Below, one piece after another: positions 4,053 through 16,278 of a DNA stretch of 26,349 bases. The DNA lies in IMG/VR virus record IMGVR_UViG_3300044845_000022, positions 1 to 26,349 of that record. One strand, given 5' to 3'. This stretch comes from a virus. Each line of letters starts with the position of its first letter. The first letter of the stretch is position 1. The notes under the pieces are model-generated. The model did not search any database. It saw only the letters and a program-made list of their open reading frames with translations, and was not told the origin of the DNA. The translations under genes were made by a program, and so were the position numbers.

Positions 4053-4340
4053 TCATAACCTTGATTCCTTTCCTGACTTAACCGCATGACATGAATTGCA
4101 CAATGGTTGCAAGTTATCGCGGTCGGTAAATGATCCACCCAATCGAACCGGATTGATATGATCAACCATTTGTGCGGTGGTGATGTTGTCATTGCTTCGG
4201 CATTCGCGGCACAATGGTTCGTCGCGCAATACTGATTGCCTAATGGCCCGCCATGCGGTTGTATTGTATCTTGGTTCCCGATGGCGATGCGCGGTGTGAA
4301 CATTCGGTCGATGGATCTTTGATGATGGCATGATGGGCAT
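4053..4340 (-). CDS. HNH endonuclease, packaging-associated type
   Basis: A 95-residue stand-alone HNH nuclease. It has a structural zinc site of two CxxC pairs (C44-C47 and C81-C84), the catalytic DH pair D60-H61 (MVDHINPV), N77 and H85 (NLQPLCNSCHAVKS). This size and architecture match the HNH proteins next to the terminase in HK97-like phages (HK97 gp74-like), which assist TerL in cleaving packaged DNA. The gene lies between the methyltransferase and terS. ATGs at 4340 and 4331 are both possible starts. Another frame is open in the same region (4303-4037) but encodes nothing recognisable. Confidence 0.9.
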   Translation of the reverse strand: MPIMPSSKIHRPNVHTAHRHREPRYNTTAWRAIRQSVLRDEPLCRECRSNDNITTAQMVDHINPVRLGGSFTDRDNLQPLCNSCHAVKSGKESRL

Positions 4341-4373: not shown

Positions 4374-5819
4374 TTACAACAATGATTCATTGTCACATTG
4401 CTGAATGGCTTTGAATATTTCGAATGCAACTTGTGGAACTATGGCATTGCCGAATCCTTTGACGGATTCTTGTCGCCACTTTGAAAAGGTAATTCCGTCC
4501 AGTTCGGTGGGAACCCCATCATCTCCGCTACAAATTGGGGATTGAGATGGGAACGCGTCCCAAGAATGTCGTTGACCTGTGAACCCAAATCGTCCCCTTT
4601 CCAATTCTCTGTTTTCCAATGCATTCTTTCGTCCGTTGCTTTCGGTGTTGGCAGTATTCCCATTGACATTGCTCGTGTTAATGTCACCGAGTGCATACTC
4701 CCTTCCTTCACTTGTGTTGATTTCATTGTTGCCGTTGCGTTCGTTGAATCCATTGCCGTTGGTGTTGGCAACATCCCCATCCATTCTATTGATGATTGTT
4801 CCATCATTCTTGCATTCATTTGTTCCGTAACTTGAAATATCTCTGCAATCTTTTGCCATTCCTCTATGCTTGGGTGACTGAATCCTTTTGAATCCTTTCT
4901 GAACCAATGTTCCACTGTTGATAATTTTACATTTATCAATTGTGATAATTCCTTTGAATTCGTTATGCCTCTGATCCAATCTACAAATTCCTTTTGTGGT
5001 GGTAAATTTGTTCTTTTCATCATTGGTTTGTTCGCTAATTCTTGGGCCAACTGTGGATTGCTTTTCAGATATTCCATTTGTATTGCATCCGTCAATGTCT
5101 TTTGAATTGGTTGCCCACTCGAACGATGTGTTGCCCCCATTAACATTTTGGCTGATCCCGTCATGTCCCCATCTTTGCTCGAATCCATCGCGGTTGGTGT
5201 TGGTAGCATTCCAGATTCCACAACATCCCGCAACTTTACACCCCACCTCACTCCCTCCTTGTTGGTTCTGAAATAATTCCCATTCTCCATTTGAACATTG
5301 TTCACACAACCACCCTCGATGTCCGCGGTCCTTGGCGTAGGCAACAAACCATATTCGTTCCCTTCGGTGTGGCGCATTGACACCGGCCGCAGGTATAACA
5401 ACGGGCGCGACTTGATACCCAAGATTTTCCAACTCAACACACACCTCGTCGAATACCATTCCCCCATTCCAACTAAGTAACCCGCGAACATTTTCGCCCA
5501 CAACGAAACGCGGGGAAATTTCTCGTATTGCTCTAAGCATTTCGGGCCACAAATGGCGGTCATCTTCTTTGCCTTTGCGCTTTCCGGCTGATGAATATGG
5601 TTGGCATGGGAATCCCCCAGTGAGAATATCAATTTTGTTTGCATATTTTGTAAAATCAGTTTTTGTTATATCTTCAAATGATTCGGCCTTGGGCCAATAA
5701 TGTTTCAATATTTTTTGTCCAAATGGGTTCCACTCGCAATGGAATACATTTTCCCATCCCATCCATTCGGCCGCTAAATCAAACCCACCAATTCCGGAAA
5801 ACAATGATCCATGTTTCAT
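4374..5819 (-). CDS. DNA (cytosine-5) methyltransferase, overlapped by a second gene in frame +1
   Basis: This 481-residue enzyme should transfer methyl groups from S-adenosylmethionine to cytosine C5 in a specific DNA site. Motifs in order: I FSGIGGFDLA (7-16, cofactor), IV GGFPCQPYS (68-76, catalytic Cys72), VI ENVRG (109-113), VIII RRERIWFVA (152-160) and X GNAIVPQVA (457-465). The part between VIII and X, where target recognition lies, is long and low in complexity, rich in Asn, Thr and Gly, with repeats such as ATNTNRDGF (205-213), ANTNGNGF (351-358) and ANTESNGR (390-397). It does not look like a normal compact target-recognition domain. The same DNA encodes LPTP repeats in the +1 frame, so the odd composition may be a by-product of dual coding. 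It overlaps the helicase stop by ATGA. Likely roles are protection from host restriction or marking of phage DNA. Confidence 0.93.
   Translation of the reverse strand: MKHGSLFSGIGGFDLAAEWMGWENVFHCEWNPFGQKILKHYWPKAESFEDITKTDFTKYANKIDILTGGFPCQPYSSAGKRKGKEDDRHLWPEMLRAIREISPRFVVGENVRGLLSWNGGMVFDEVCVELENLGYQVAPVVIPAAGVNAPHRRERIWFVAYAKDRGHRGWLCEQCSNGEWELFQNQQGGSEVGCKVAGCCGIWNATNTNRDGFEQRWGHDGISQNVNGGNTSFEWATNSKDIDGCNTNGISEKQSTVGPRISEQTNDEKNKFTTTKGICRLDQRHNEFKGIITIDKCKIINSGTLVQKGFKRIQSPKHRGMAKDCRDISSYGTNECKNDGTIINRMDGDVANTNGNGFNERNGNNEINTSEGREYALGDINTSNVNGNTANTESNGRKNALENRELERGRFGFTGQRHSWDAFPSQSPICSGDDGVPTELDGITFSKWRQESVKGFGNAIVPQVAFEIFKAIQQCDNESLL
4439..5644 (-). CDS. Overlapping-frame protein with LPTP repeats and an HTH-like segment, inside the methyltransferase gene
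   Basis: A 401-codon frame with its own ATG at 5644 lies entirely inside the methyltransferase gene, in the +1 frame. The product looks like a real protein: four repeats of the LPTP(T/R/K)(A/T) type at residues 101, 147, 292 and 331, an N-terminal aromatic-rich block (FAGYLVGMGEWYSTR, 53-67), a segment resembling a helix-turn-helix (about 219-270, with KELSQLINVKLSTVEHWFR), and a C-terminal LNPQFVAEMMGFPPNWTELP block (367-386). From memory, proteins with the same PTPT repeats and MGFP ending are deposited next to or inside phage C5 methyltransferase genes; this could not be checked. Function is unknown. A target-recognition partner or regulator of the methyltransferase is a hypothesis. A stop codon (TAA) just upstream in this frame argues for its own start, not frameshifting. 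Confidence 0.7.
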   Translation of the reverse strand: MQTKLIFSLGDSHANHIHQPESAKAKKMTAICGPKCLEQYEKFPRVSLWAKMFAGYLVGMGEWYSTRCVLSWKILGIKSRPLLYLRPVSMRHTEGNEYGLLPTPRTADIEGGCVNNVQMENGNYFRTNKEGVRWGVKLRDVVESGMLPTPTAMDSSKDGDMTGSAKMLMGATHRSSGQPIQKTLTDAIQMEYLKSNPQLAQELANKPMMKRTNLPPQKEFVDWIRGITNSKELSQLINVKLSTVEHWFRKDSKGFSHPSIEEWQKIAEIFQVTEQMNARMMEQSSIEWMGMLPTPTAMDSTNATATMKSTQVKEGSMHSVTLTRAMSMGILPTPKATDERMHWKTENWKGDDLGSQVNDILGTRSHLNPQFVAEMMGFPPNWTELPFQSGDKNPSKDSAMP

Positions 5820-14010: not shown

Positions 14011-14529
14011 TTAGGTTGTTAGGGCGATACATTCTGCATCGGTTAATGCGGTTGGGAAAAAAATTAATTGTTTAGTCGCTTGGCTTCCATATTCTCCATT
14101 ATTTACACGAATAGCGTTTTTCACTCCAACTGCGGTATCACTATAAACAGTTCCTTTTACACCATTTACAAACGCAACTACATTAGTGCCGTCATAGCGA
14201 ATGGCTATTTTTACATTTGCGCCTACTGCTGGTGTAATTGTAAATAAATTCTGACTATAACCATCATTAAAACTTTGAACTTGCGGACCGTTACCACATA
14301 TCGTTATAGCGTTACCATCTGCAAAAAATGCATTCCCGACGCTTGAGCCAGCAAATAATGAAATTAAATATTGACCATTTGGACTATCTATTTTTGTAGC
14401 CTCAAACTCATAAAACAAAGTACCAGCGGTTGAGGTGTTGCCAAAGCCGCCTTTTTGGTAGGTATCCGCCACCCTTGTGGCACTTGCTGATGTGGTTGGT
14501 CCTATATAACTCGTTGCATAACTTCCCAT
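14011..14529 (-). CDS. Tail fibre C-terminal part, lectin-like domain, separated from its N-terminal part
   Basis: 172 residues. The opening MGSYATSYIGPTTSASATRVAD is not a typical protein start: it is the continuation of the fibre gene ended at 15100, matching the linker that follows the second repeat there. The rest is a beta-sandwich of LamG/ConA-lectin-like type (LFYEFEATKID, VKIAIRYDGTNVVAFVNGV, then LIFFPTALTDAECIALTT), probably for binding host-surface glycan. The ATG is 4 bases after the homing-endonuclease stop, so reinitiation could produce it as a separate chain. It then may assemble with the N-terminal part without a covalent link. Confidence 0.8.
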   Translation of the reverse strand: MGSYATSYIGPTTSASATRVADTYQKGGFGNTSTAGTLFYEFEATKIDSPNGQYLISLFAGSSVGNAFFADGNAITICGNGPQVQSFNDGYSQNLFTITPAVGANVKIAIRYDGTNVVAFVNGVKGTVYSDTAVGVKNAIRVNNGEYGSQATKQLIFFPTALTDAECIALTT

Positions 14530-14533
14530 TTCC

Positions 14534-15058
14534 TTAGTTGTTTAAGTATGACCATTTTTTGTTTGCTGACTTGTTGCCGTTCTTGATTGCAAGACGCACG
14601 GCGTGTGAACTTAATCCGTGGGCGTACGCTGCCGATTTTGCAGTTTCGTATACATTCCCAATTTCGTCAATTACTGGTTTCATTTTGTGTTGTTTTGCCT
14701 CACGGTCTTTTTGTAGTGTTTCAATGGTACGCTTTTTTATTTCCTTTGGGTATCTATTCAATGCCCTTGAATGCCGTATATTCTCGCTATGGGTACACCA
14801 TTCTAAATTTGCAACTTCATTATTCAATCGGTTGCAATCTTTGTGGTTTACTTCCGCTTTGTTCTCTGGGTTCTCAATAAACGCCTTTGCAACTAATCTA
14901 TGCGCCATTTCATATTTGCGCTGATAATTGCCCATACTCATTGAATAGCACACATAACCATTTGCGCCTACATTGCCCTTCAATATGTATTCCCCGTGTC
15001 TCAATTTTCCCGTGTTACTTATTTCGTATTTTTCGTTTACAAATTTCCATATTTCCAT
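14534..15058 (-). CDS. HNH homing endonuclease inserted in the fibre gene
   Basis: 174 residues. An N-terminal NUMOD4-like part (MEIWKFVNEKYEISNTGKLR), an HNH core (MAHRLVAKAF at 51-60, then EVNHKDCNRLNN at 70-80 and NLEWCTHSENIRHS at 84-97, with H53, N71-H72 and N93 as likely active residues), and a C-terminal NUMOD1/IENR1-like DNA-recognition helix region (SAAYAHGLSSHAVRLAIKNG). Such enzymes cut an uninterrupted allele and spread their own gene by repair. It occupies 525 of the 573 bases that split the fibre gene, leaving too little sequence for a normal group I intron, so it looks like a free-standing homing gene. Confidence 0.9.
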   Translation of the reverse strand: MEIWKFVNEKYEISNTGKLRHGEYILKGNVGANGYVCYSMSMGNYQRKYEMAHRLVAKAFIENPENKAEVNHKDCNRLNNEVANLEWCTHSENIRHSRALNRYPKEIKKRTIETLQKDREAKQHKMKPVIDEIGNVYETAKSAAYAHGLSSHAVRLAIKNGNKSANKKWSYLNN

Positions 15059-15062
15059 AGTA

Positions 15063-15070
15063 CAAATATA
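15063..15070 (-). promoter_or_regulatory. Possible -7 box of the homing endonuclease (TATATTTG)
   Basis: TATATTTG on the minus strand matches TAnnTTTG and ends 4 bases before the endonuclease ATG. The homing gene may bring its own promoter and make a leaderless message. There is no TTTG at the right distance upstream. A perfect 12 bp palindrome GTATAATTATAC lies about 15 bases further upstream. Confidence 0.35.
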
Positions 15071-15099
15071 CGCTATTTCGTTGGTATAATTATACTACA

Positions 15100-16278
15100 T
15101 TATTCTATTTGTGCGCCCCAAGCGAAAATACCTTTTACCCCGTCTGCACTTGAAACGATAGCACTGCCATTTGTTTGTGCGACATAAATATGCGGTTCGC
15201 CAAGCGTTGAAGTTGTTGTAAATGTAAAAATACACCTATACCACCCATTGCCCATATTTTGTATTGATGAACTACCACTTCCCGTAATTGAACCAACTAC
15301 ACCAGTCGATAAATCAAACCAAGCGTATTGCCCACCATCCACTCTAACCAATCCAAAATTATACCCCGCTGCTTTTAAGTATACACTATATGTATAAACA
15401 GTAGAATTTGACAAAGATAAATTTTGATAAATTCCCCCCGAATCGGTAGTAGATGCTTGTTGAATTATTTTATCAGCATTCTGCGTTCCGTCGGGTGATG
15501 TTGTATTATTTGCAGCAATTGAACTTCTAAAAGTTACCCAAGCCGCATTGTCCAATTGTTCTGAATACAAACACAAATTCGTACTCTGCTTTTCCAACAA
15601 CAAACTCGGACACCCGCCCCCGCCATTTTGATAAGTTAATCGTGGAACATTTAATCTGTCGGTAGTGGGGAAATAGGGTTTGGCGGTTGAGCCGATGTTT
15701 AGTTGACATCCCCACGCCCACATCGTTCCGATTGTGCTTGTTGCCGCTAATACCCACGCTTGAATTTCATAGCATCCGCTTGGTGTTGTAAATGTTCTTT
15801 CTATTTTTACCCAAGCACCCAATACAACACTACTTGAATAATTATAGTATTCAATGTTTGTCAAATTTGTATTGTCATAAAATCTGCCTTGTTGCCCCAA
15901 TGCCGTTCCACCATAAACATAAAAACTCCAAGTATAAACGGTATTCGGTAGAACAGAAATAGTTTGTTTGACATCACACCCGTTGACTGAAATTGTAAAT
16001 TTATCTGCCGTTAAAGTTCCATTTGGGGCGGTTATATCGTTTGCCGTAACCGTTACATTTGCCAAAGTCCAAACGGCGTTGCTAAAATCCTCGCTATACT
16101 GCGCTAAACTCCACGGGCAAACCTCCACCAACCCCGCACTATTTATTCGGGTTCCGTTGGATGCTCGGGTAAATGACAAATCCCCGCTTCCGTCGGTTGG
16201 TACTGCTGAATATACGATGTCCTCTTTATACCCGCTCGGTATCATTACCAAACTCGCACTATTTAATAAGTCGCTCAT
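15100..16278 (-). CDS. Tail fibre N-terminal part with two carbohydrate-binding-like repeats
   Basis: 392 residues. It opens LLNSASLVMIPSGYKED, then DGSGDLSFTRASNGTRINS, a pattern common in fibre-like proteins of Bacteroidota phages and prophages. Two repeats follow, each starting YSE-x(3)-NA-x-W (YSEDFSNAVW near 62 and YSEQLDNAAW near 240) and ending in a WGxQ segment (WGCQLNIGST and WGAQIE). They resemble carbohydrate-binding beta-sandwich modules. The frame stops right after WGAQIE, whereas repeat 1 continues into a GSTAKPYFPTTD linker. The missing continuation is found at the start of the gene at 14529, so this is a split gene. Base use looks different from the rest of the genome, suggesting recent exchange of the fibre. 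Confidence 0.8.
   Translation of the reverse strand: MSDLLNSASLVMIPSGYKEDIVYSAVPTDGSGDLSFTRASNGTRINSAGLVEVCPWSLAQYSEDFSNAVWTLANVTVTANDITAPNGTLTADKFTISVNGCDVKQTISVLPNTVYTWSFYVYGGTALGQQGRFYDNTNLTNIEYYNYSSSVVLGAWVKIERTFTTPSGCYEIQAWVLAATSTIGTMWAWGCQLNIGSTAKPYFPTTDRLNVPRLTYQNGGGGCPSLLLEKQSTNLCLYSEQLDNAAWVTFRSSIAANNTTSPDGTQNADKIIQQASTTDSGGIYQNLSLSNSTVYTYSVYLKAAGYNFGLVRVDGGQYAWFDLSTGVVGSITGSGSSSIQNMGNGWYRCIFTFTTTSTLGEPHIYVAQTNGSAIVSSADGVKGIFAWGAQIE

Follow-up and report, generated by a model that had tools for sequence, protein, structure and literature searches.

A tail fibre gene in two pieces

The locus examined here raises the question of whether two tail fibre ORFs with an HNH homing-endonuclease gene between them are the pieces of one formerly continuous gene, and whether the intervening DNA is spliced out or leaves the fibre as two separate chains. 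The window, that is, the whole stretch of DNA analyzed, is a complete virus record of 26,349 bases in which the fibre and HNH genes belong to a minus-strand tail operon. The N-terminal part of the fibre (U; 15100-16278, minus strand) is an ORF of 392 aa that ends in ...FAWGAQIE and takes its TAA stop from the inserted cassette. The cassette itself (14530-15102, minus strand), delimited by comparison of 16 of 16 contigs and of empty sites, consists of this TAA, a 41-base leader, the HNH ORF (14534-15058, minus strand; 174 aa) and a 4-base spacer. Immediately 5′ of it lies the first half of the insertion site, TGGGGCGCACAAATAGAA (WGAQIE; 15103-15120, minus strand), as recognized by site comparison. 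At the other end, the HNH stop is followed after 4 bases by the ATG of the C-terminal part of the fibre (D; MGSYATSYIGPTT...), with the GGAA spacer and ATG at 14527-14533 (minus strand). Supported both as an ORF and by a structure model, D (14011-14529, minus strand; 172 aa) starts with MGSYATSYI and opens on the linker GSYATSYIGPTTSASATRVAD (14464-14526, minus strand), which forms the 3′ half of the insertion site and of which approximately the first 30-75 bases move with the cassette.

An ORF check upheld the coordinates and reading frames that an earlier, sequence-only reading of this DNA had assigned to U, the HNH gene and the C-terminal part. That reading also gave the make-up of the insert, and its total of 573 bases, the 525 bases of HNH gene and the 4 bases thereafter stood, while the 43 bases placed ahead of the gene had to be corrected to 44 (TAA plus 41). 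In place of a single codon of the continuous gene, the split allele has the 576 bases of TAA...ATG, a net gain of 573. Two further features to which attention had been drawn did not survive comparison. The trinucleotide GAA present at both edges is not a target-site duplication, since the 3′ copy varies (the spacer is GGAA, GAAA, GACA or AATT across the 16 cassettes) and the 5′ copy is a conserved Glu codon. A 12-bp palindrome, GTATAATTATAC (15084-15095, minus strand), was ruled out as an operator, being imperfect in several cassettes (GTATAAATATAC, GCGTAATTATAC) and not conserved between them.

Uninterrupted fibre genes in related phages

Searching IMG/VR with U returned 67 loci, and this search together with a pattern search for the linker yielded 32 uninterrupted sites with the motif WGxQxE-x-[GS]..TSYI. 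The residue that the cassette replaces was mostly Ala and never Met at these sites, while TGGGGCGCACAA was found in all 16 split alleles versus 15 of the 32 uninterrupted ones. The linker parallel proposed previously, WGAQIE-x-GSYATSYI, is real, and is intact at all 32 uninterrupted sites. In a sister phage (L043), a single complete ORF encodes a 567-aa fibre, with residues 1-395 and 398-566 aligning to U and D of the window, respectively. On the upstream side of the fibre these two phages share 96.7% DNA identity across 5.2 kb, and on the downstream side 92.7-96.5%; their 838-aa tail proteins are 98.6% identical and the 93-aa neighbour is 100% identical. The fibre of a cultured flavobacterial virus, Nonlabens phage P12024S, is likewise uninterrupted and carries WGAQIEQGSTASSYIPT.

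No split and continuous pair with matching modules on both sides was found, the best continuous partner reaching 66% in U and 64% in D, so that the empty site is defined by alignment of the motif and not by identical sequence. Comparison at this level confirms that the fibre gene of the window is an insertion-split version of one continuous gene, as had been suggested. The opposite pattern, homologues in which the two parts are always separate and never fused, was also looked for and was not borne out, fused homologues being common, L043 and P12024S included.

Recurrence of the cassette

Fifteen further contigs, each from a different metagenome (judged by the sample number within the contig name), also contained the cassette, and a search with its non-coding leader recovered the same contig set minus one. 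All 16 contigs had the order U-TAA, 41 bases, HNH (174 aa), 4 bases and ATG-D, with invariant spacing. Although the 4-base spacer took the four forms given above, the ATG was constant in 16 of 16 split alleles, and counted over distinct alleles it was present in 11 of 11 split versus 0 of 32 continuous forms (p = 2e-10). Moreover, the D ORF was open and intact (168-174 aa) in each of the 14 contigs, of the 16, that were long enough. That 15 independent contigs should share one codon and one spacing is far more than chance could produce. The most divergent cassette (L015:3652-4176) encodes an HNH protein of about 78% identity, and its leader and 3′ end have also diverged. It nonetheless retains the stop, start and spacing, indicating that the split arrangement is not recent.

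The cassette gene does encode an HNH homing endonuclease, a point on which Pfam HNH_3 (37.3 bits versus a cut-off of 24.8; E = 2e-9), PHROG 59 (HNH endonuclease; E = 1.8e-36) and the HNH homing endonuclease in PDB entry 1u3e (E = 6.6e-9) all agreed with the initial assignment. We take the latter to be I-HmuI, the SPO1 intron endonuclease. The N-terminus of the protein is NUMOD4-like, scoring under the NUMOD4 cut-off in Pfam, and the C-terminal part resembles NUMOD1 by eye only, with no Pfam match there. Purifying selection acts on the HNH gene, for which dN/dS was 0.03-0.35 between pairs, with codon-level constraint all along its length. The gene resides inside its presumed target, for which relatives carry uninterrupted alleles (16 filled versus 32 uninterrupted sites). 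Searches of cultured phages exposed distant relatives only, and those of cellular genomes two distant matches only; the distant HNH relatives at L017-L030 were located elsewhere, outside the fibre gene concerned.

Additional features were noted elsewhere in the window. A second HNH gene, of 95 aa (PF01844; 4053-4340, minus strand), adjoins the terminase genes. Also on the minus strand, an ORF of 401 aa (4439-5644) without a Pfam match overlaps, in another frame, most of the 481-aa ORF (4374-5819) of a C5-cytosine methyltransferase.

Splicing, separate genes or a dead remnant

What is one continuous gene in relatives is here a pair of ORFs on either side of a homing endonuclease gene, and we consider it very probable that a free-standing HNH homing endonuclease invaded the fibre gene and gave rise to a genes-in-pieces adhesin. 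If the insert were instead a compact self-splicing intron, of group I or another type, with an ORF overlapping its ribozyme core, a single fibre chain would be restored. I-HmuI, the relative of known structure, is encoded in a group I intron, the net insert length is divisible by three, and in some pairs the ends of the cassette are its best-conserved parts. Group I introns have a ribozyme core (P3-P8), a U-G 5′ splice site and a terminal G. However, Rfam returned no intron match and no such core, even at permissive thresholds, anywhere in the window or in four other cassettes, only 44 + 4 bases of the cassette are non-coding, and folding energies were near those of shuffled sequences (z = -1.6 to +0.8). 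A long-range helix in the consensus fold, joining the 5′ and 3′ ends, was considered as an intron sign and rejected: shuffles did equally well in most cassettes, covariation was lacking, and the helix was broken at three pairs in L015, the most divergent cassette. There is also no conserved U ahead of a possible 5′ splice site, the 3′ end is variable, and substitutions in the ORF are constrained at codon level throughout. Finally, a spliced intron would not need the in-frame stop at its start and the ATG at its end that all 16 cassettes possess. With Rfam, folding, covariation and splice-site logic all negative, there is no recognizable intron, in keeping with the earlier view that too little sequence lies outside the gene for an ordinary group I intron core, and we regard splicing as very improbable.

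Intergenic locations are on record for some homing endonuclease genes (PMC2988022), and U and D could on that precedent always have been two genes with an ordinary free-standing HNH gene in the gap, the fused forms having arisen later. This order of events is scarcely conceivable given that continuous forms are widespread and diverse, extending to distant relatives and the cultured flavobacterial phage, that split forms devoid of the HNH gene were not seen, and that the split falls at one exact codon in a conserved motif. Another reading accepts the insertion and holds that it truncated the fibre, with the downstream ORF an unmade or unused remnant. Structure models place the end of U at a domain boundary, such that it could be a working shorter fibre, and dN/dS for D between the window and L012 was 0.36-0.40 from 19 changes, no more than a hint that D remains under selection when split. 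Against this, D is intact with its ATG at a fixed distance in 14 of 14 complete contigs, even though their cassettes have diverged to 75% identity, and that ATG is specific to split alleles, being found in none of the 32 continuous ones. A dead C-terminal part is on this evidence improbable, and the HNH invasion that left the fibre gene in two pieces, both presumably in use, is the reading that we develop below.

Fibre domains and likely expression of the two parts

U contains two carbohydrate-binding-like beta-sandwich modules, with a weak Pfam match to CBM_4_9, and matches a tail-protein PHROG. In an AlphaFold model of the continuous L043 fibre (overall pLDDT 70, pTM 0.37; used for domain boundaries only), the insertion point falls after E395, where strand 387-396 ends, and is directly followed by a low-confidence stretch (398-428), with the next domain beginning around residue 430. 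The model of D from the window (pLDDT 74) has values under 50 at residues 1-6 and 10-20, and the remainder adopts a jelly-roll of the widespread concanavalin A-like type, as in CBM40 modules and pentraxins, a moderate similarity that concerns the fold only. D is accordingly predicted to comprise a jelly-roll adhesin domain after some 20 disordered linker residues; a search for close relatives gave it no match in cultured phages. In these models each chain keeps its domains whole, which would account for the tolerance of the split. Among cultured phages, the fibre and capsid proteins come closest to those of flavobacterial phages, at 30-34% identity, and the host is likely a member of the Bacteroidota.

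With respect to expression, the TAnnTTTG box that had been pointed out in the leader, TATATTTG (15063-15070, minus strand), is of the Bacteroidota -7 type and in each of the 16 cassettes lies 4 bases 5′ of the HNH ATG. It is possibly a leaderless promoter of the HNH gene. TAnnTTTG was not enriched across the whole window (35 versus 26.8 ± 5), and hence only the conservation and fixed spacing of the box count. The minus strand of the window has three copies of the arrangement TAnnTTTG-N4-ATG (ATG at 4340, 15058 and 22184), two of them ahead of HNH genes, and this repetition suggests leaderless transcripts or a shared promoter arrangement. Neighbouring genes in the operon are often coupled stop to start (-4, -1, +1, +3 and +6 bases); with similar coupling so common, a start of D by re-initiation fits. 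Translation of D would then hinge on an intact HNH frame, which would shield the nuclease gene from decay.

Reassortment of fibre modules around the cassette

The HNH proteins were 75-100% identical in amino acids between cassette contigs; identities in the flanks were mostly 31-49% for the last 150 aa of U and mostly 31-57% for D. At the nucleotide level, similarity started sharply about 18 bases 5′ of the insertion and stopped about 30-75 bases past the start of D. Individual pairs shared one flank and not the other: L006 and L012 have U in common (99%) but not D (37%), L009 and L010 are 100% identical in U and HNH but only 57% in D, and the window and L012 have D in common (94%) but not U (45%). 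In L004, the backbone is 92-97% and the cassette 92.6% identical to the window, but U and D are divergent. Overall, U distances and D distances were uncorrelated (r about 0). Distances in the 3′ part of the HNH gene tracked those in the initial 27 bases of D (r = 0.77-0.85, p ≤ 0.004), while their correlation with the rest of D was gone once the outlier L015 was excluded, which indicates that the cassette and a short 3′ flank move as a unit. The mobility of the cassette is independent of its flanks, in that near-identical cassettes occur in unrelated U and D contexts and the same U occurs with different cassettes.

Modules are exchanged among continuous alleles too: L037 and L060 are 86% identical in U and 42% in D, demonstrating that shuffling can proceed without the nuclease. 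A second conserved island, at approximately 15464-15714, spans the first fibre linker (WGCQLNIGSTAKPYFPTTDRLNVPRL...) and is about 80-95% identical despite differing flanking domains. Judged by its sequence, this island is a module joint lacking any nuclease.

In the mechanism that we propose, the HNH endonuclease would cut the uninterrupted WGAQ(x)E|xGSYATSYI linker, its presumed target, and repair would copy the cassette in. The insertion lies at a conserved codon where the final beta-strand of one domain ends, just 5′ of the flexible linker. The cassette brings with it the upstream TAA stop, the likely promoter box, the HNH gene and the ATG 4 bases past the HNH stop, and would thereby turn one fibre chain into two separately translated chains, which we infer to assemble in the virion. 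As the flanking domains have diverged too far to provide homology, this repair, or ordinary recombination at the joint, would swap whole fibre modules. A further idea, which we put forward as speculative and rather unlikely, is that the cassette acts as a portable joint for adhesin exchange, with homing swapping binding modules and a selfish nuclease driving fibre change. If true, a split at the edge of a module, together with the stop and start signals, would make the C-terminal adhesin a separately encoded, swappable gene, and cuts at uninterrupted linkers that offer scant homology on their fibre side would cause homing to replace binding modules as wholes.

Comparison with known systems

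We found no earlier report of a tail fibre or adhesin gene split by an HNH gene at a module joint in the literature searched, which was limited and lacked most subscription journals. I-HmuI (1u3e), a related HNH enzyme that likewise has 174 aa, is intron-borne, whereas the cassette of the window has no detectable intron. The nearest precedent in mechanism is the ribonucleotide reductase gene nrdA of phage Aeh1, in which the free-standing HNH homing endonuclease gene mobE separates two coding regions with no intron (PMC2988022), and the comparison made with it beforehand was apt in that respect: there, as in the window fibre, a gene is split by a free-standing HNH gene instead of an intron. The Aeh1 target, however, is an essential enzyme, in contrast to the variable, host-binding fibre. 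Moreover, unlike in Aeh1, the split here lies in a flexible interdomain linker, recurs in many phages and is flanked by modules that are reassorted. Reassembly is established for NrdA and is predicted for the two fibre chains.

Other split genes beside homing endonucleases are gene 60/39 of T4, a topoisomerase gene, with mobA and gene 43 of Aeromonas phage 25 with seg43, for the latter of which the order of events is described as unclear (PMC2988022). These also involve two chains encoded next to a homing endonuclease, but in other target genes and with no link to adhesin module exchange. At a larger scale, Barth, Dunham and Seed (2023) described nuclease genes at the edges of exchanged phage blocks (HEG islands) and reported interrupted genes, including spliced tape-measure genes, with no mention of tail fibres in the main text (PMC10448857). 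HEG islands mark boundaries between blocks of genes, whereas the cassette sits inside one gene, between two adhesin domains; they include spliced interruptions, and that of the fibre appears to be unspliced as far as can be told.

Two testable questions are raised by this locus, namely whether a fibre made of two chains can function and whether the shuffling of fibre modules is driven by homing endonucleases. Phages that are nearly identical carry either the split or the continuous allele, and the split falls exactly at the domain linker that is used for module exchange. While the known gene-splitting homing endonucleases of phages hit conserved enzymes, the one found here has repeatedly entered the most variable kind of gene, that of the host-binding fibre.
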